A stretch of DNA of 12,345 bases from positions 1 to 12,345 of the forward strand of contig NZSH01000049.1 in the NCBI GenBank assembly GCA_002696705.1. The letters run 5' to 3'. Positions 1,049 through 9,528 of this stretch are shown here, piece after piece (within the stretch, counting starts at the first letter, position 1; every line of letters begins with the position of its first letter). The notes below the pieces were generated by a model that was not told the DNA's origin, did no database searches, and saw only the letters and a list, made by a program, of their open reading frames with translations. The position numbers and the translations under genes are program-made. Source of the stretch: Woeseiaceae bacterium (GTDB lineage Bacteria > Acidobacteriota > Vicinamibacteria > Vicinamibacterales > UBA823).

Positions 1049-1078
1049 TTGACCAACTGATTAACTGCGTTCTATACT
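1049..1078 (+). promoter_or_regulatory. Sigma70-type promoter for the Lys/Arg leader and LysW operon
   Basis: A -35 box TTGACC (1049-1054) and a -10 box TATACT (1073-1078) are separated by 18 bases. Both are close to the housekeeping consensus. Transcription would start near 1085, about 12 bases before the leader-peptide ATG and about 190 bases before lysW. The position fits a dedicated promoter for the biosynthetic operon. Predicted by eye only. Confidence 0.65.
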
Positions 1079-1096: not shown

Positions 1097-1192
1097 ATGC
1101 CTAGAACATATGATTCATCCGCCAACGGTCAGCACGATAAACGAAAGCGGAAGCGTTCGTACATCGGCGGAACATGTTGGGCAAAACGTTAA
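1097..1192 (+). CDS. Putative 31-residue Lys/Arg leader peptide (attenuator)
   Basis: An ATG about 12 bases after the predicted transcription start opens a 31-codon frame ending in TAA at 1190-1192. Codons 15-20 (1139-1156) read Lys-Arg-Lys-Arg-Lys-Arg, and the last two sense codons (1184-1189) are again Lys-Arg. Five of the 31 residues are Arg-or-Lys pairs' lysines and arginines beyond chance expectation: 4 Lys and 5 Arg in total. The ORF sits between a strong promoter and an intrinsic terminator preceding lysW, the standard arrangement of an amino-acid attenuator, so the peptide is probably made only to sense charged tRNA. The 5' leader is very short and lacks a strong Shine-Dalgarno; GAG at 1082-1084 is the only candidate and may lie upstream of the transcript start. 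Translation is therefore the weakest point. Upstream in-frame coding is not expected, because this ATG is nearest the start site. No function for the peptide product itself is inferred. Confidence 0.7.
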   Translation: MPRTYDSSANGQHDKRKRKRSYIGGTCWAKR

Positions 1193-1254
1193 GCAACCGT
1201 TACGCGCCACACTCAATATCCCGCCGACCGTTTATACGCTTCGGCGGGTTTTTT
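1118..1254 (+). promoter_or_regulatory. Transcription attenuator with mutually exclusive hairpins upstream of lysW
   Basis: Four complementary segments are visible. A is TCCGCC (1118-1123), B is TCGGCGGA (1164-1171), C is CCCGCCGA (1220-1227) and D is TCGGCGGG (1241-1248). A can pair with the last six bases of B. B can pair with C over seven bases (1164-1170 with 1221-1227). C pairs with D over eight bases to form the terminator. The Lys/Arg codon run (1139-1156) lies between A and B. A ribosome stalled at the first Lys or Arg codon would cover or disrupt A and leave B free to pair with C, preventing termination. An unstalled ribosome allows A:B and C:D. This matches the logic of the trp and his attenuators; pairing was judged by eye without energy calculation. 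Confidence 0.72.
1220..1254 (+). terminator. Intrinsic terminator in the lysW leader
   Basis: CCCGCCGA (1220-1227) and TCGGCGGG (1241-1248) form a perfect 8-bp GC-rich stem. A 13-base loop contains a further CGT/ACG pairing. The stem is followed directly by six T residues (1249-1254). It ends 13 bases before the lysW ribosome-binding site GGAG (1268-1271), so it must be bypassed for the operon to be expressed from the 1049-1078 promoter. Confidence 0.85.
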
Positions 1255-1276: not shown

Positions 1277-1441
1277 ATGCCTAACTGCCTTGAATGTGAT
1301 GCCAATATTGTTTTAGACCAAAAAGTTGAAATCGGGGAGATCGTCGACTGCCAAGACTGCGGCACTGAATACGAAGTCCGTTCCATAGATCCCCAACAGA
1401 TTGATTACGCTCCCAAAGAAGAGGAAGACTGGGGCGAGTAG
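1277..1441 (+). CDS. lysW: LysW amino-group carrier protein
   Basis: This is a 54-residue acidic carrier protein. In the LysW pathway the side-chain carboxylate of its C-terminal Glu is bonded to the amino group of 2-aminoadipate or glutamate, protecting that group and presenting intermediates to the later enzymes. Two Cys pairs form the zinc-binding core: Cys4/Cys7 (CLEC) and Cys25/Cys28 (CQDC). The C terminus reads EEEDWGE, matching the conserved EDWGE tail with Glu54 as attachment residue. Length is typical of the family, about 54 residues. Ribosome-binding site GGAG (1268-1271) lies 5 bases before the ATG. It is the first gene of a six-gene operon, immediately downstream of the attenuator terminator and 12 bases before lysX. 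All signature residues are present, so the identification is secure even though the gene is very short. Confidence 0.95.
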   Translation: MPNCLECDANIVLDQKVEIGEIVDCQDCGTEYEVRSIDPQQIDYAPKEEEDWGE

Positions 1442-1453
1442 AAAGGGTCCTTC

Positions 1454-2311
1454 ATGCGTCTGGGCATTTTATGCTCCATTGTTAGAACCGAAGAAAAGCT
1501 CATTTTCGAAGCCTTTCGAGGTCTCGGAGTCAAATTCGATCGAATCGATGATCGAGGGCTAATTCTCGACCTAAATAATGGCAACCATCCGTGGGACATA
1601 GTCCTTGAACGTGCAGTCAATCATTCCAGAGCCCTGCATACGTTAAAGATCCTCAACGACCGGGGTATTACAACCGTTAATTCCTGGAACGTTGCGAACA
1701 CCTGTGGGGACAAAGTCCTAACCAGCAATGCCCTCGTTACGCACAACGTGCCAACGCCACGTACATTGATTGCCTACACACCGGAATCTGCCCTTGAGGC
1801 TATTGACCAACTCGGCTACCCAGTTGTCCTTAAACCAGCGGTAGGGTCTTGGGGCCGTTTAATTGCTCGGGTCAATGATCGTTATGCTGCCGAGGCACTT
1901 CTCGAACACAAGCAACGGCTCGGGTCATACCATCATTCAATTTTCTATATTCAAGAATATGTACCGAAAGGCAATCGTGACATCCGAGCGTTCGTGGTCG
2001 GGGAAGAAACGATTTGCGCAATCTATCGCCATAGCGAACACTGGATTACCAACACCGCACGGGGAGCCCATGCAACAAACTGTCCGGTGACTGACGAACT
2101 GCACTCAATCTGCCTAGCGGCCAGTCAAGCAGTTGGAGGAGGTGTGCTAGCCGTCGATGTCTTCGAGTCGCCCAAAGGGTTGTTAGTAAATGAAGTGAAT
2201 TACACGATGGAATTTCGTAATAGCATTAGTGTCACGGGAATCCCGATTCATGAGCGCATTGCGGCCTATACACTTGGCGTTGGCGAAGCAAAGGCAACTG
2301 CGACGCTATGA
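1454..2311 (+). CDS. lysX: LysW ligase, LysX/ArgX (RimK-type ATP-grasp)
   Basis: This cytoplasmic ATP-dependent ligase joins the amino group of 2-aminoadipate and/or glutamate to the C-terminal Glu of LysW. The 285 residues match the family's usual length. ATP-grasp features include GDK (85-87), [11 protein letters not shown] (125-135) with Lys127, [19 protein letters not shown] (165-183), an NTARGAHA loop (200-207), Asp235 in AVDVF, and the metal-binding NEVN (246-249) followed by TMEFRNS (251-257). This last motif resembles the LysX type as I remember it from Thermus (a TMEFKNS motif). AAAGGG (1442-1447) precedes the ATG by 6 bases, and its stop overlaps the next gene's start as ATGA, suggesting translational coupling. 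Whether the enzyme prefers aminoadipate, glutamate or both cannot be read from sequence here. No second copy of the ligase lies in the operon, which leaves a dual role open. Confidence 0.93.
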
Positions 2312-3348
2312 ACGTTAGTATCTTAGGCGGCTCCGGCTATGTTGGTGGTGAGCTAGTTCGACTACTCCTTGATCACCCACACGCAACCCTGCTAAACATC
2401 ACCTCCGAACGTCACGCCGGTCGATTAGTGAGTGCGGTCCATCCCAACCTACGTCGTCACACTTCTCTAAGGTTTAGCCGCATGGACGACCTAGGACCTT
2501 GCGATTTACTTTTTTCTGCGCTGCCACATGGAAGTTTCGCCAAACATTTTCATGCCTTCAAGTCCGTTGCACCACGAATAATCGATTTAAGCGCAGATTT
2601 TCGTTTGCGTTCGGCAGACGACTACAAACACTGGTATGGCCACGTTCATCCTAATCCGGAGACCCTTAACGACTTTGTCTACGGTATCGTTGAAATCCGG
2701 CGAGACGAAATCCGCAATGCGAACTATGTAACTGGTGCTGGCTGCCTAGCTACAGCCGCTATCCTTGGGCTCTTACCACTTTTTAAGAACGGTCTTGTCA
2801 ACGATGGGGAACCGGTAGTCATCGAAGCTAAGGTTGGCTCGTCTGCGGCGGGTAACAAGGAAAGTCCTTCAAGCCATCACCCAGAACGCAGTGGAGCCGT
2901 CCGATCATTCCAGGCTACTGGACACCGGCACACCGGCGAAATCATACAGGAACTTGCTTACCACGGTACACCGACGGTGCACTTTTCTGCTACGGCCATT
3001 GAGTTGGTGCGAGGCGTTCTCATCACAGCTCATTTGCGACTCGCAAAACCACTGGACAACAAGGCCCTCTGGAATGTTTACCGTAACGCTTACGATGCGG
3101 AACCGTTCATTCGCATTGTCAAGGAAACACGAGGCGTGTTTCGGTACCCAGAGCCAAAGATATTATCTGGTTCTAACTTCTGTGATGTTGGCTTTGAAAT
3201 CGATCCTTTTGGTGAAAGATTGGTAGTGCTTGCAGCTCTCGACAATCTGATGAAAGGCGCTGCCGGTAATGGCGTGCAGGCCATGAATATCATGGCCGGC
3301 TGGGATGAGCGCGCAGGCCTGCACTTCCCGGGCCTACACCCTGTGTAA
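2308..3348 (+). CDS. argC: LysW-linked acyl-phosphate reductase, LysY/ArgC type
   Basis: NADPH-dependent reductase converting the LysW-bound aminoadipyl or glutamyl phosphate to its semialdehyde; homologous to N-acetyl-glutamyl-phosphate reductase ArgC. The N-terminal Rossmann motif [14 protein letters not shown] covers residues 7-20. SADFRLR (95-101) is a family landmark. The catalytic Cys146 lies in [17 protein letters not shown] (142-158), and a conserved His lies in GHRHTGEI (205-212). [12 protein letters not shown] (175-186) is close to what I recall of the LysY branch. The length of 346 residues is normal. The start overlaps the lysX stop by four bases (ATGA), and the nearest purine-rich site, AAGG at about 2290, is distant, so coupled re-initiation is likely. 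Placement between lysX and lysZ gives the LysW-pathway assignment rather than the acetylated route. Intact, with no missing key residue noticed. Confidence 0.93.
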
Positions 3349-3371
3349 GCGTCCAGCGTGACAGACATTCA

Positions 3372-4199
3372 ATGTTGATAATCAAAGTGGGCGGTGGAGA
3401 GGGTATCTACTACGAAACAGTCTGTAGTGATCTTGCCAGACTGTACCACCAAGGTCGTTCCTGCTTGCTCGTCCATGGTGGCTCGCATGAAACAAACATC
3501 CTGTCTGAAAAGCTTGGCCATCCGCCACGTTTTGTCACGACCGTGTCTGGATATGAAAGTCGATACACGGATCGAAAAACAATTGAAATATTTGAAATGG
3601 CTTATTGTGGAAAAATTAACAAGATGATCGTGGAGATACTTCAAAGCCACGACGTGCCAGCCATTGGACTGTCAGGATTAGATGGCAGACTCCTGTTAGC
3701 GACACGTAAGCCCACGCTGACAATTGTCGAAAACGGAAAGAAGAAAGTACTCCGAGACGACTATACCGGTAAGATCGAATCGGTCAATACCGACTTGATT
3801 CATCTACTAGACCAAGCAGGTTATGTAGTAACTGTGTGCCCTCCAGCCATTAGCCGTGAACACCAAGCAGTCAATGTCGATGGAGACAGGGCGGCTGCCC
3901 GTATTGCTGAAGCAGTGAAAGCGGATGACTTGGTGATCTTATCTAATGTGCCAGGTCTATTAGAGAAAATAGATGATCCAACAACACTCATAAAGGACAT
4001 CACATTAACCAACATCGATCAATATTTCGAATATGCAAAAGGTCGCATGAAGCGAAAACTCCTTGCAGCGAAAGAAGCGCTGCTGGGCGGTGTTACGCGG
4101 GTTACATTGGGCGACGCTAGAATTGACTCCCCTATTACGCATGCACTTTCTGGAAATGGCACAGTAATCACAAGGCGTGATGACTCTTCAAGAGATTGA
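3372..4199 (+). CDS. lysZ: LysW-linked aminoadipate/glutamate kinase, LysZ (ArgB homologue)
   Basis: Amino-acid kinase that phosphorylates the side-chain carboxylate of LysW-bound aminoadipate or glutamate using ATP. The 275-residue sequence begins MLIIKVGGGEG, the LysZ-type opening with Lys5 and a Gly-rich loop, and continues with LLVHGGSHETN (32-42), HPPRF (50-54), DRKTIEIFEMAYCGKINK (67-84) and IGLSGLDGRL (98-107). The nucleotide-binding half shows VNVDGDRAAA (167-176), ILSNVPGLL (189-197), KGRMKRKLLAAKEAL (223-237) and the terminal GNGTVI (261-266). These are much nearer to remembered LysZ than to classical ArgB. It follows argC after a 23-base gap with no clear Shine-Dalgarno, and its 3' end overlaps lysJ by 20 bases or more. 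Function in the operon is secure; the exact substrate is not. Confidence 0.93.
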   Translation: MLIIKVGGGEGIYYETVCSDLARLYHQGRSCLLVHGGSHETNILSEKLGHPPRFVTTVSGYESRYTDRKTIEIFEMAYCGKINKMIVEILQSHDVPAIGLSGLDGRLLLATRKPTLTIVENGKKKVLRDDYTGKIESVNTDLIHLLDQAGYVVTVCPPAISREHQAVNVDGDRAAARIAEAVKADDLVILSNVPGLLEKIDDPTTLIKDITLTNIDQYFEYAKGRMKRKLLAAKEALLGGVTRVTLGDARIDSPITHALSGNGTVITRRDDSSRD

Positions 4200-5334
4200 A
4201 CAATCCTTTACGTCCGGGCTTTACCACAAGCGCCCCATCACGCTAGTGCGTGGAGCAGGCGTTCGAGTCTGGGATTCCGAAGGACACGAATATATAGATT
4301 GTACATCGGGCATAGGTGTGGCAGCGCTGGGTCACGCACATCCTGTGATAGTAGCAGCGGTTCAAAAACAATCTGAACTGCTCATTACCTGTCACGAAAT
4401 GTTTTATAACAACTCGCGCGCAGAATTATTACGTTGCTTATCAGGACTTCTACCAAAACCCCTGACTAAATTCTTCTTCAGTAACTCAGGAGCCGAAGCT
4501 AACGAAGCGGCCATCAAATTCGCACGTGCAACAACCGGCCGATCGGCAATCGTGTCGGCCAGGCGTGGCTACCACGGGAAAACTATGGGAGCGCTGAGTG
4601 CGAACTGGGATAGAAAGAATCGCGAACCCTTCGAACCCCTTGTGCCAGACTTCGAGTCTCTTCGATTCAATGACTGCACAACCGCGAAGGAAGTGATTAC
4701 TGAGCATACAGCAGCAGTAATCATTGAGGTAATTCAAGGTGAGGGAGGTGTTCGACCTGCTTCCCAAGATTTTCTAAACACTTTAAGAAAAGCCTGTAAC
4801 GATTGTGGCGCCCTACTCATCATAGATGAAGTACAGACTGGCTTCGGACGGACTGGCCGCATGTTTGCATTTGAACATTATGAAGTTATTCCAGACATCC
4901 TTACCCTCGCCAAGGCGGCTGGTGGAGGACTACCTATCGGCATTACAGCATTTCACAATAAAATCGATAACCTTGCAAAGTTAAGTCATACCACGACATT
5001 TGGTGGCAATCCTCTGGTCTGCGCTGTTGCTACATCAGTGATCGAGCATTTAGTCAGAGAGGACATCCCCAAGAGAGCAGCTGACCGTGGTGCGTATTTT
5101 ATCGAGCAACTACGTGCGATCGACCATCCAGAAATTCGCGAAGTGCGAGGTAAGGGACTCATGATTGGAGTCGAGTTAAAACACCCTGCAGGTTCAGTCG
5201 CGCGAAATATGATGAATGAAGGCGTTTTAGCCTTGCTTGCCGGAAACAACATTCTTCGCTTCCTTCCCCCATTAATCATTGACACTACTGACATCGATCA
5301 AGTCGTGAGCGCACTAAGGCGTGTACTCACCTAA
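4180..5334 (+). CDS. lysJ: LysW-linked semialdehyde aminotransferase, LysJ/ArgD (PLP-dependent)
   Basis: Class III PLP aminotransferase that uses glutamate to convert the LysW-bound semialdehyde to LysW-lysine or LysW-ornithine. Counting from the ATG at 4180, cofactor-site motifs are SNSGAEANEAA (101-111), YHGKTMGALS (131-140), IIDEVQTGFGRTG (214-226) with Asp216, the Schiff-base Lys245 in LTLAKAAGGGLPIG, and TTFGGNPL near 272-279. Length is about 384 residues, as in ArgD/LysJ. A GTG at 4177 directly precedes the ATG and is an alternative start; AAGG at 4172-4175 is close to either. The gene begins inside the end of lysZ, consistent with translational coupling. Annotation pipelines would probably call it acetylornithine aminotransferase; the neighbours argue for a LysW-bound substrate. 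All catalytic residues are present. Confidence 0.93.
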   Translation: MTLQEIEQSFTSGLYHKRPITLVRGAGVRVWDSEGHEYIDCTSGIGVAALGHAHPVIVAAVQKQSELLITCHEMFYNNSRAELLRCLSGLLPKPLTKFFFSNSGAEANEAAIKFARATTGRSAIVSARRGYHGKTMGALSANWDRKNREPFEPLVPDFESLRFNDCTTAKEVITEHTAAVIIEVIQGEGGVRPASQDFLNTLRKACNDCGALLIIDEVQTGFGRTGRMFAFEHYEVIPDILTLAKAAGGGLPIGITAFHNKIDNLAKLSHTTTFGGNPLVCAVATSVIEHLVREDIPKRAADRGAYFIEQLRAIDHPEIREVRGKGLMIGVELKHPAGSVARNMMNEGVLALLAGNNILRFLPPLIIDTTDIDQVVSALRRVLT

Positions 5335-5348
5335 GGGGCAAGTCACTG

Positions 5349-6395
5349 ATGGATGATCAACAGGCAGTAGCCCTCCTTCATGATTTGTGTGCAACCTATT
5401 CACCTTCCACACATGAAAAGGCTGCAGTCACCCTATTAGTCGAACGTGCAAACGCGTCAGGTCTTCATGCCCATACTGACGACGCCGGAAATTTCATTGC
5501 TGAACGTGGCTCTGGAAAACGCACTGTCTTACTGCTCGGCCATATTGATACGGTGCCAGGCTTCATTGAACCTCGTCTTGAAGGAAACTTACTGCATGGA
5601 CGAGGTACCGTTGACGCAAAAGGACCACTCGCAGCTTTCTTGGTAGCAATCGCTCGAGCAAGCCATCAGAACGATATCCGCCTCATTACAATAGGAGCCG
5701 TGGAGGAAGAAGCGCCTACATCTAAAGGAGCTCACTACATCACCAACAAATATCAACCAGAAGCTGTAATTATTGGAGAGCCCAGTGGTACGTCTGGAAT
5801 CACACTCGGGTACAAAGGTCGCGTAAACCTTGATCTTAACGCAACACAGGCTCATGCCCACAGTGCTGCGGCCAATCGAAGTATCGCTGCTCATGCGGCG
5901 GAATTCTGGACACGTTTGGAAGACTGGTGTAACTCGTTCAATCAAGGTAAACGAATCTTCGACCAAGTCGACCCTCATCTGATTAATATCAACTCACAGA
6001 CGGATCATTTCCAGGATCAGGTTAGCTTAAGCGGCAGCCTTCGCCTTCCTCTTAACTACTCCCTGGAAGACCTTAAAAGTAAAACCACTGCATTGGCTGG
6101 CACATGGGGCAATGTGACACTCAGACACTTTGTACAGCCTTTTAAAGCCGATCGACGTACACCTTTAGTCCGCTCGCTATTGCGAGAGATTCGAAAAGAA
6201 GGACTAGAACCAATCTTTAAATTGAAGACAGGAACATCAGACATGAATGTGGTTGGCCCAGCTTGGCAGTGCCCAATCGTAGCCTACGGCCCAGGAGACT
6301 CAAGACTGGATCATACGGCTGAAGAACACATCAGCATTCAGGATTACCTTAAGTCGATCTCAATCCTCACACGTGTATTAGATGGATGGGTCTGA
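5349..6395 (+). CDS. lysK: LysW-lysine/ornithine hydrolase, LysK/ArgE type (M20 metallopeptidase)
   Basis: This M20-family metallohydrolase carries out the last step, cutting lysine or ornithine from the LysW C terminus and regenerating the carrier. In the 348 residues the metal-site motifs are LLLGHIDTVPG (61-71; His65, Asp67), GRGTVDAKGPL (84-94; Asp89), IGAVEEEAPTSKGA (115-128; Glu119/Glu120 as base and ligand), GEPSG (143-147; Glu144), KTGTSDMN near 294-301, and a C-terminal DHTAEEHI with His322. The opening LCATYSPS resembles the LysK branch and differs from typical ArgE/DapE. AAGGGG (5333-5338), overlapping the lysJ stop, is a good ribosome-binding site 10 bases before the ATG. It ends the operon, and 34 bases later a - strand gene ends convergently. 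No strong terminator with a T-run is seen after it, only a 5-bp hairpin (6419-6423 with 6431-6435). Confidence 0.92.
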   Translation: MDDQQAVALLHDLCATYSPSTHEKAAVTLLVERANASGLHAHTDDAGNFIAERGSGKRTVLLLGHIDTVPGFIEPRLEGNLLHGRGTVDAKGPLAAFLVAIARASHQNDIRLITIGAVEEEAPTSKGAHYITNKYQPEAVIIGEPSGTSGITLGYKGRVNLDLNATQAHAHSAAANRSIAAHAAEFWTRLEDWCNSFNQGKRIFDQVDPHLININSQTDHFQDQVSLSGSLRLPLNYSLEDLKSKTTALAGTWGNVTLRHFVQPFKADRRTPLVRSLLREIRKEGLEPIFKLKTGTSDMNVVGPAWQCPIVAYGPGDSRLDHTAEEHISIQDYLKSISILTRVLDGWV

Positions 6396-6429: not shown

Positions 6430-6927
6430 TTATCGATCAGCCACGATCATCACAAGTCCAGTACCTAAAATGGAAACTGAACCTGCTAACAAGGCGTAGT
6501 CAATCATTTCAGCCTGGGTATCCCGTGTGGTTACTTGCCCTCCGCTTGAGCCTGCATTTCGCTTAAGGAAGTAGCCGAACAGCACGCCACCAATAACGGC
6601 CGCTATCACGGGACCTACTATGCTTTGAGATTGTTGAGGTTCACTATCCTCAGTGGGTTGCGTAGAGCCCTCTTGGGTAGAAAAGAATTGTCTATTCCAA
6701 GGTGCTGACGGAGGCAAAAGTATTTCTGAAGCAACGGGAGAAAAGATATTCTCCGGTCTCGCAATTAGCTCTTCTCGAATGTGCTTCAGTTCATTCGACC
6801 TGGCATGCACCAAAACCTCGTCTACCACTTGAGTCGGAAAATTACTCCTTGATTGTCCGACAACTGGAAAACCTATACTGACAATTGATGCGGCCAACAC
6901 TAACGCACAAAGTCGCTTCCAGATCAA
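6430..6927 (-). CDS. Unrecognised exported or membrane-anchored protein
   Basis: I do not recognise a family for this 165-residue protein. It opens with a short basic segment and a hydrophobic stretch (roughly residues 5-24, ending GFPVVGQS) that looks like a signal peptide, with a possible cleavage site after VVGQ. Residues about 25-100 are polar, with a Gln/Ser/Glu/Pro-rich linker before residue 100. A hydrophobic segment follows at about 102-120 (ending FGYFLKR), then a second at about 143-162 before the C terminus ADR. This suggests a periplasmic N-terminal part held by two C-terminal helices. The start codon is TTG (6925-6927), supported by an excellent ribosome-binding site GAGGAG (complement of 6935-6940) 7 bases upstream; the ATG further upstream is out of frame and soon stops. 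It is convergent with lysK and divergent from the exchanger gene. No function is proposed. Confidence 0.7.
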   Translation of the reverse strand: MIWKRLCALVLAASIVSIGFPVVGQSRSNFPTQVVDEVLVHARSNELKHIREELIARPENIFSPVASEILLPPSAPWNRQFFSTQEGSTQPTEDSEPQQSQSIVGPVIAAVIGGVLFGYFLKRNAGSSGGQVTTRDTQAEMIDYALLAGSVSILGTGLVMIVADR

Positions 6928-8217: not shown

Positions 8218-9528
8218 TTAGAGCGTCGGTGTATCCCTCGTCGCCCGCCAACATGCCGGCATCAAGAGAATATTCGCGCAAATCCTACCCAACACGATGG
8301 CGGTGACCGCAGCCATTACGCCAACCGAATTGAAGTGTTGAATTGCAATCCATAGAATCATCGCAATTCCTACCACCTCGATTGCAGTTGCCCAAGTGAT
8401 GACTTTCGTCGTTCGCGCGTTCACCAATAAAGCACGCTGAAACGAAAGCAGCACAGACAGGGCTGGTAAAAGAACTAGAATTTTAAGTGGGGGAATGGCA
8501 AATTCAGTCAACCCAATCGAAAGACCCGACACGTCATAAAACCACAAAAAGGATAAGGGGCTGTAAGCTATCACAGCTAAACAGACCGACGTAACGATGG
8601 CCAACGTACAGGCGACGTTTCGGAGTGGGCGGTACTGTTCCATATGGTCGCCCAGCAATGCGATAGAAGCATCCTGGAACGATAGGCCAAGACTTCGAAA
8701 CAGAAAAGTTAAGCCGTTTAACACCGGAAGAACAGCCAATGATTCAAGAGCCATCCGACTCTGCCCCATGAAAAACGTTACCATTGGTTGAACCCCCATT
8801 GCCAAAAAGGAGCTCAACGCTAACGGAACATAGAATTTAACGACATTGCTCAATGTCAACGGCTGCCCTTCTGTTTTTCTTCGGTCCATTAAGGCTCGAA
8901 TTGCTCGCCTCGACATTCTACGCACGGCCAATGCTTCTGCAACCACGGCGACAGATAAAGCTAACGCGCCTACAAGCGCCCCGGATATGGACAACCACCA
9001 CCCTGCAATGACTGCTGTCGCACACATCGTTACTAACCGGACCACAGTGCCATACGCAACGCGACGAGTCATATCGTGCCGAATGAGTAGTCCTTGAAGT
9101 AAACGTCGATATCCGATCGCTCCTGGCCATGGCAACATCAGAATCAGCGCTTGATGAGTCAGACTTGCCACAGCAACTGGTAGATTCAACCAGGACGCTA
9201 ACGTGTCAAATACTGGTGGCATAACAATGATCACCATTACACCGGTCATCAATGCAGAAAGCGCGATCGTGAACCGACGAAAGACAAGGTAACTGTCACG
9301 ATTGTTAACAAGCGCTGTTGATGCGCTCATCAACATGATGACCGGCGACTCTACGATGATAGCGAAGGCAAACGCGACTCCGTAAGCAGCAAGGTTAGGA
9401 GCTGCGTCAGGTAAGCGGGCAATGACGGCAGCTAAGAATGGACCTTCGACTGCCATCATCAACCAGGTGCCAGCCAAAGGCATCCAGAAAACAAGAATGC
9501 GTCGCGTCTTTAAGGGTTCTGCAGTCAT
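8218..9528 (-). CDS. Multi-pass membrane protein, MATE/MOP-like (possibly ANK-type)
   Basis: A 436-residue, strongly hydrophobic protein with about twelve predicted membrane segments, no signal-peptide cleavage site and a short polar C-terminal tail. It has two-fold architecture: FWMPLAGTWLMMAVEGPFLAAVI near residues 13-35 and FYVPLALSSFLAMGVQPMVTFFMG near 230-253 look like equivalent first helices of two halves. This is the hallmark of the MATE/MOP exporter fold. The segment NLAAYGVAFAFAIIVESPVIMLMSASTALV near 45-74 has the arrangement I associate with the ANK (progressive ankylosis) branch rather than classical drug-efflux MATE proteins. The ATG (9526-9528) has AGG 7 bases upstream. The gene stands alone, convergent with the exchanger and divergent, 36 bases away, from the YtxJ-like gene. 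Substrate unknown; a transporter or flippase role is inferred from fold alone. Confidence 0.75.
   Translation of the reverse strand: MTAEPLKTRRILVFWMPLAGTWLMMAVEGPFLAAVIARLPDAAPNLAAYGVAFAFAIIVESPVIMLMSASTALVNNRDSYLVFRRFTIALSALMTGVMVIIVMPPVFDTLASWLNLPVAVASLTHQALILMLPWPGAIGYRRLLQGLLIRHDMTRRVAYGTVVRLVTMCATAVIAGWWLSISGALVGALALSVAVVAEALAVRRMSRRAIRALMDRRKTEGQPLTLSNVVKFYVPLALSSFLAMGVQPMVTFFMGQSRMALESLAVLPVLNGLTFLFRSLGLSFQDASIALLGDHMEQYRPLRNVACTLAIVTSVCLAVIAYSPLSFLWFYDVSGLSIGLTEFAIPPLKILVLLPALSVLLSFQRALLVNARTTKVITWATAIEVVGIAMILWIAIQHFNSVGVMAAVTAIVLGRICANILLMPACWRATRDTPTL

Follow-up and report, generated by a model that had tools for sequence, protein, structure and literature searches.

A putative lysine-sensing leader-peptide attenuator upstream of the lysW operon in a marine acidobacterium

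The lysW operon of a marine acidobacterium is preceded by a leader that, with a probability we set at roughly 70%, works as a ribosome-mediated transcription attenuator of the trp/his type and measures charged tRNA-Lys. The leader was analysed within a stretch of 12,345 nucleotides, hereafter the window, and compared against 193 genomes of its class, taken to be the Vicinamibacteria. The comparison suggests that the lysW leader is one member of an attenuator family spread across the class. The Arg codons that alternate with its Lys codons are probably, from the codon content of the related leaders, a contextual or structural part of the element and no second sensor.

The gene upstream of the leader ends at 971, and lysW starts at 1277. 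The interval holds a promoter, a short ORF and a hairpin, listed here with the genes that follow.

1049..1078, + strand: sigma-70-like promoter TTGACC-18-TATACT (10 of 12 matches; 18 nt between the -10 element and the ATG)
1097..1192, + strand: leader ORF of 31 codons, peptide MPRTYDSSANGQHDKRKRKRSYIGGTCWAKR*, intact with 31 codons in six of seven loci including the window
1118..1123, + strand: segment A (TCCGCC), with its pairing partner at 1166-1171 (6 pairs)
1139..1156, + strand: run K15-R16-K17-R18-K19-R20, with the core CGA AAG CGG AAG at 1142-1153
1164..1170, + strand: segment B, 5' arm of the antiterminator, encoding I-G-G (conservation and folding)
1186..1207, + strand: stop-codon hairpin (RNAalifold), which belongs to the antiterminator cap and may act as an RNA polymerase pause site
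1220..1254, + strand: intrinsic terminator, a G+C-rich hairpin with a T run (six T), kept in six of seven loci
1220..1227, + strand: segment C, common to antiterminator and terminator (folding)
1241..1248, + strand: segment D, 3' arm of the terminator (folding)
1277..1441, + strand: lysW, the first gene of the operon (TIGR01206 over cut-off)
1454..6395, + strand: lysX and genes of argC/lysY type, [LysW]-aminoadipate kinase type, lysJ/argD type and [LysW]-lysine hydrolase type (profile matches)

The promoter match is weak alone (one found versus 1.6 expected in shuffles); across seven aligned loci, the window counted, TTGACC is invariant in all and TATACT in six. Among the 238 window ORFs of at least 15 codons, the leader is the only one with a K/R run of at least five, and an ORF with a K/R run of six arose in a fraction of 0.0001 of 20,000 dinucleotide shuffles of 1079-1219. 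The terminator, folded as 1215-1256, reached -18.1 kcal/mol (z -3.9), and none of 200 shuffles was as good; a simple terminator scan of the window did not include it in its list. The antiterminator formed by B and C (1158-1230; -23.0 kcal/mol, z -2.7) is mutually exclusive with the terminator. The locus thus combines three features of a leader-peptide attenuator: a short ORF between promoter and lysW, an intrinsic terminator and a mutually exclusive antiterminator. These results bear out the preliminary description as regards the promoter at 1049-1078, the 31-codon ORF with six alternating Lys and Arg codons (an ORF of this length is intact in five relatives as well), the strong intrinsic terminator before lysW, and the four segments A to D with a competing B:C antiterminator.

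Translation of the leader, ribosome stalling, the signal and its direction are predictions from the sequence. With Lys-tRNA plentiful, the ribosome would pass the K/R codons, cover segment B and reach the stop codon; with B covered, C would pair with D, the terminator would form, and the lysW operon would be left untranscribed. With Lys-tRNA short, the ribosome would stall on the AAG/AAA codons that immediately precede B, leaving B to pair with C ahead of the synthesis of D, and RNA polymerase would continue into the operon.

The six intact leaders were folded with the ribosome placed at codon 17. While D was not yet made, the minimum free energy structure of the RNA beyond the ribosome paired C with B in every leader. 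Once the full terminator was made, C:D exceeded B:C in stability in every leader, a result that allows antitermination only as a kinetic effect. Without a ribosome, C paired with B in the window and in G004, whereas the remaining four leaders paired it with D; for the window and G004 read-through would be expected without stalling, which counts against the attenuator model. RNAalifold returned the terminator, the stop-codon hairpin and a hairpin within the K/R codons. In the stop-codon hairpin, 94.4% of 54 cells were paired and no two-sided change was seen, and the window lacks three of the nine pairs; this hairpin is therefore compatible with covariation, although unproven by it. The K/R-codon hairpin survives G-U/G-C exchanges that replace the encoded amino acids, also with no two-sided changes. 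A GNRA hairpin, considered as the reason for CGAAAG, was inconsistent when checked by eye. The preliminary description also proposed an A:B helix. Its six pairs exist in the window; however, its position is not conserved. G002 and G004 allow six pairs (one G-U) elsewhere in the ORF, and G003, G005 and G169 allow only four or five. Comparable pairing occurs in three of six leaders, at differing places, and A:B was rejected as a helix kept in place.

To follow the leader in close relatives, LysX was searched at E<=1e-60 and found in 29 genomes (31 places). Thirty LysX loci were read: lysW lies in the flank of 28, and a homologous leader region occurs in seven, including the window and one decayed copy. 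No leader was seen by eye in the remaining 21 lysW-bearing loci. Among 80 named loci, 68 of them with lysW, no leader was found beyond the known L086 (G005) and L087 (G169), in a weak check that combined reading by eye with a simple text test that missed the L086 peptide. The lysW leader and LysX on the 6.2-kb contig C76 of G169 (L031/L054/L087) closely resemble those of G003; this contig, in a genome of another family, is possibly misbinned.

The six intact leaders share M1, G11, R16, K17, K19, I23, G24, G25, C27 and R31, with a common core R-K-(R/W)-K ... I-G-G. RKRK is present in five and RKWK in one; among the five relatives, four read RKRKC and one RKWKC. The leader ORF, terminator and antiterminator upstream of lysW are kept in these five relatives, whereas the strict K/R alternation on which the preliminary description relied is not. 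Variation is free in codons 2-15, where codon positions 1, 2 and 3 have 10, 12 and 12 variable sites. Codons 16-24 have only four variable sites, all at first positions; their third positions never vary, which indicates that an RNA-level constraint is present too. In codons 25-31 the variable sites number 3, 1 and 6 by codon position, so that six of the seven third positions vary. Six of the seven loci keep the promoter and the leader ORF together with B, C and D. The seventh, L006 (G001), is a natural loss: damage has reached the start codon, the ORF, the B arm and the terminator alike, and lysW and lysX are still open.

For the class-wide search, a covariance model from the six lysW leaders (R1) matched the seven known genomes and ten more at E 7e-5 to 0.05. 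In five of these ten, asd, lysC or hom is preceded by a leader ORF that contains R-K-R, Thr or Met codons. The asd gene (TIGR00978) is present in 124 of the 193 genomes; 70 upstream regions were examined, 33 of them with a terminator by scan. In the 32 asd leaders read, an exact in-frame CGA AAG CGG occurs in 23 and CGA AAG occurs twice in 8. A second model (R2) was trained on 28 asd and four lysW leaders, leaving out asd leaders L208, L215, L217, L238 and L245, in which a terminator was seen by scan. With E<=0.05, a limit that should admit about ten genomes by chance, R2 had 127 matching places, spread over 104 of the 193 genomes. The stricter E<=0.001 left 94 genomes, of which 32 had contributed training rows; of the 70 asd regions, 39 matched at this limit, 28 of these being training rows.

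We read 84 of the 127 R2 places (86 matches minus two, the second, antisense match in L054 and L324). Forty-nine lie before asd and 11 before lysC; the others precede dapB, hom, metY, thrB, hisI and pheA. For 36 further places, 30 downstream proteins were scanned and gave asd, aspartate kinase, dapB, homoserine dehydrogenase, thrB, metY, hisI, pheA and trpD; no family was found for the protein downstream of L308. An ATG ORF is in the modelled frame in 79 of the 84 matches versus 2 and 9 in the other frames (47, 1 and 8 of the 52 non-training matches). In 51 of the 84, the complementarity of B and C exceeds that of mononucleotide shuffles (p<=0.05, among related sequences); p 0.05 was not reached by the dapB, thrB, pheA and trpD singletons or by the lysW leader of G004. 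In the window's own family (G000-G004), asd has neither a terminator by scan nor an R2 match. The attenuation control, leuA, lacked a convincing leader in all 11 loci examined, and the one locus scanned has a divergent LysR-type gene upstream. The codon counts take L289 and L311 in frame +2, and trpD (L322), L308 and L323 gave no ORF. L260, L280, L281 and L288 were counted as asd by their position beside asd matches, L294, L318, L319 and L320, with no identified gene, stayed outside the gene classes, and L301 has one 720-aa ORF whose only recognised domain is dapB.

The codons of these leaders follow the downstream gene. Lys is present in 63 of 68 lysine-branch leaders and absent from five, versus one of nine others (Fisher 5e-7); with training rows removed, the counts are 33 of 36 versus one of nine (6e-6), p-values that ignore shared ancestry and come from a model trained mainly on Lys-bearing leaders. 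At least two Thr codons occur in 49 of 60 asd/lysC leaders versus two of eight leaders of the lysW/dapB type (0.002); the two are L299, for which a long peptide was counted, and the window leader, a point against the lysine reading. The hisI leader reads HHHVHHH, the pheA leader has three Phe, and two metY leaders are Met-rich, one also with a Lys. Leaders with matching codons before hisI, pheA, metY and hom (Thr/Met) were noted in L311 (G026), L317 (G022), L300 (G024), L315 (G070), L292, L306, L310 and L321; from sequence, attenuation may be widespread in amino-acid operons of the Vicinamibacteria. Since the codons follow the products, the lysW leader, Lys-rich and Thr-poor, reads as a lysine sensor.

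Behind these leaders there may be a common origin, which we rate slightly short of an even bet. One homologous attenuator scaffold would have been copied in the Vicinamibacteria before asd, lysC, dapB, hom, metY and, in one lineage, the aminoadipate-type lysW operon; the sensed codon would have been exchanged (Lys, Thr, Met, perhaps His), and the Arg-bearing scaffold kept. Its features are a promoter just before the ATG, sensor codons that include an R-K-R unit, a B arm that is often (V/I)-G-G, and a CCCGCC-type terminator.

The Arg codons need a separate account. Leader peptides that respond to more than one amino acid are known, and the preliminary description proposed an OR gate, in which shortage of either charged Lys-tRNA or charged Arg-tRNA would stall the ribosome in the alternating run and turn the operon on. 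We consider a dual sensor of this kind unlikely, although part of the evidence speaks for it. In the aligned core, Arg occupies codons 0 and 2 in 65 and 61 of 67 leaders and Lys codon 1 in 58 of 67, and a merely passive Arg fails to explain conservation equal to that of Lys. Of 141 Lys codons, 113 stand next to an Arg codon, many more than an Arg frequency of 0.171 would give, and R-K-R is kept with specific codons, as in the exact CGA AAG CGG of the asd leaders. In addition, LysW pathways are able to serve arginine in some organisms, as passages of PMC10433800 indicate. However, Arg is present in 68 of 68 lysine-branch and nine of nine other leaders (77 of 77 scored), that is, whatever the product, and is therefore not a product signal; since arginine is not the product of asd, lysC or dapB (nor of hom or metY), the signal is likely to be Lys. 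In two asd leaders, L257 (G012) and L258 (G034), Met stands in place of Lys and the preceding CGA is kept. R2, trained mainly on Lys-bearing leaders, found no match in the arginine-cluster loci of G000, G002 and G004, and one lysW leader has RKWK. Thus, the attenuator with its conserved K/R codons stands from the earlier proposal, whereas the Arg input is opposed by Arg before non-arginine genes and by the RKWKC relative. The persistence of CGA/CGG may reflect a role in structure or translation, descent of the unit from a shared ancestor, or a genuine input from Arg.

The genome also speaks on the pathways. The preliminary description credited the operon's enzymes with a capacity for both lysine and arginine synthesis; that the operon serves both is doubtful, as the window genome (G000; a 1.72-Mb assembly, 75% complete) encodes a separate acetyl-ornithine arginine cluster on one contig elsewhere, with argH, argG, argR and argC-argB-argD-argJ-argF together. 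Among solved structures, the entries nearest to the window LysX are labelled lysine biosynthesis enzyme or RimK-like; we take them to be Thermus-type LysX of Thermus origin. Lysine is the predicted product of the lysW operon from the leader codons. Against it stand lysA and dapF, also encoded elsewhere in G000, and the lack of a homocitrate synthase over cut-off in the 13 genomes searched; the homocitrate-synthase-like matches scanned in G000 and G001 were 2-isopropylmalate synthase. No dapB over cut-off was found in the six family genomes carrying LysX (G000-G005), and weak dapB matches in two of them were rejected, being nearest to 2,4-diaminopentanoate dehydrogenase and below its cut-off. 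Two further window ORFs, 6430-6927 (-) and 8218-9528 (-), of 165 and 436 aa, had no NCBIfam match at E<=0.001.

The RNA-level constraint raises the question of whether the leader is an RNA element, such as an aptamer or a protein-binding site, with the K/R reading as a by-product of a purine-rich motif. The invariant third positions of codons 16-24 and the K/R-codon hairpin, kept despite amino-acid changes, would fit. We hold this explanation to be improbable, as the matches are overwhelmingly in the modelled frame, CGA AAG is repeated in frame in a quarter of the asd leaders, the content of Lys, Met, Thr and His codons tracks the downstream gene, and codons 25-31 vary mostly at third positions. 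Moreover, neither the window nor ten related loci gave an Rfam match at the gathering threshold, including the lysine riboswitch and T-box. Those two systems likewise control lysine genes through termination in a 5' leader; in the lysW leader, however, the likely sensor is the ORF.

A nascent-peptide sensor, in which the end I-G-G-(P/T)-C-(W/R)-x-x-R would stall the ribosome on a small molecule, is proposed by analogy with the Salmonella speF leader, where a small molecule reportedly makes the nascent peptide stall the ribosome. The invariant I23, G24, G25, C27 and R31, with third positions of codons 25-31 mostly free, are consistent with it; nevertheless, I-G-G is dictated by the B arm, and the peptide end is not common to the asd and lysC leaders (by eye), so we judge it very improbable. 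A constitutive terminator of the upstream gene, or a chance ORF, with no regulation is hardly credible: equilibrium folding prefers C:D over B:C in the stalled-ribosome model, but a conserved promoter separates the upstream gene from a conserved ORF, the elements decayed jointly in L006, and the arrangement recurs across the class.

The reading as a lysine-sensing attenuator resembles several known systems. Like the trp, his, thr and ilv attenuators of Proteobacteria and Actinobacteria, the lysW leader has a short ORF with putatively cognate codons, an intrinsic terminator and a competing antiterminator; it differs in its occurrence in Acidobacteriota, in the likely sensing of Lys, in the embedding of Lys in R-K-R, and in a 1:2 helix not established as conserved. 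For the lysine cluster of Thermus thermophilus, Tsubouchi and colleagues are said to have described leader-peptide attenuation in 2005. By that account, a LysW/aminoadipate-type lysine operon is under a leader peptide there too, whereas the window leader looks like those that precede aspartate-pathway genes in its class. The speF leader of Salmonella, as outlined in part of PMC6386406, is also an Arg-codon leader controlling a cationic amino acid gene, although speF encodes a catabolic decarboxylase. The portions consulted of a 2010 survey (PMC2965389) describe leader-peptide systems as known from Proteobacteria and Actinobacteria, add Firmicutes, and give hardly any predicted Acidobacteria attenuator with an associated function. 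In the open-access literature on lysine/arginine leader attenuation, LysW leaders and Acidobacteria attenuators, we found no description of the class-wide leader family.

If the family in 104 of 193 genomes is real and its codons follow the gene, it would amount to a code by which a phylum with few cultured members regulates its amino-acid operons. Leader codons would then help to predict the products of orphan operons, as with the lysine predicted here for a LysW operon that has no recognised homocitrate synthase.
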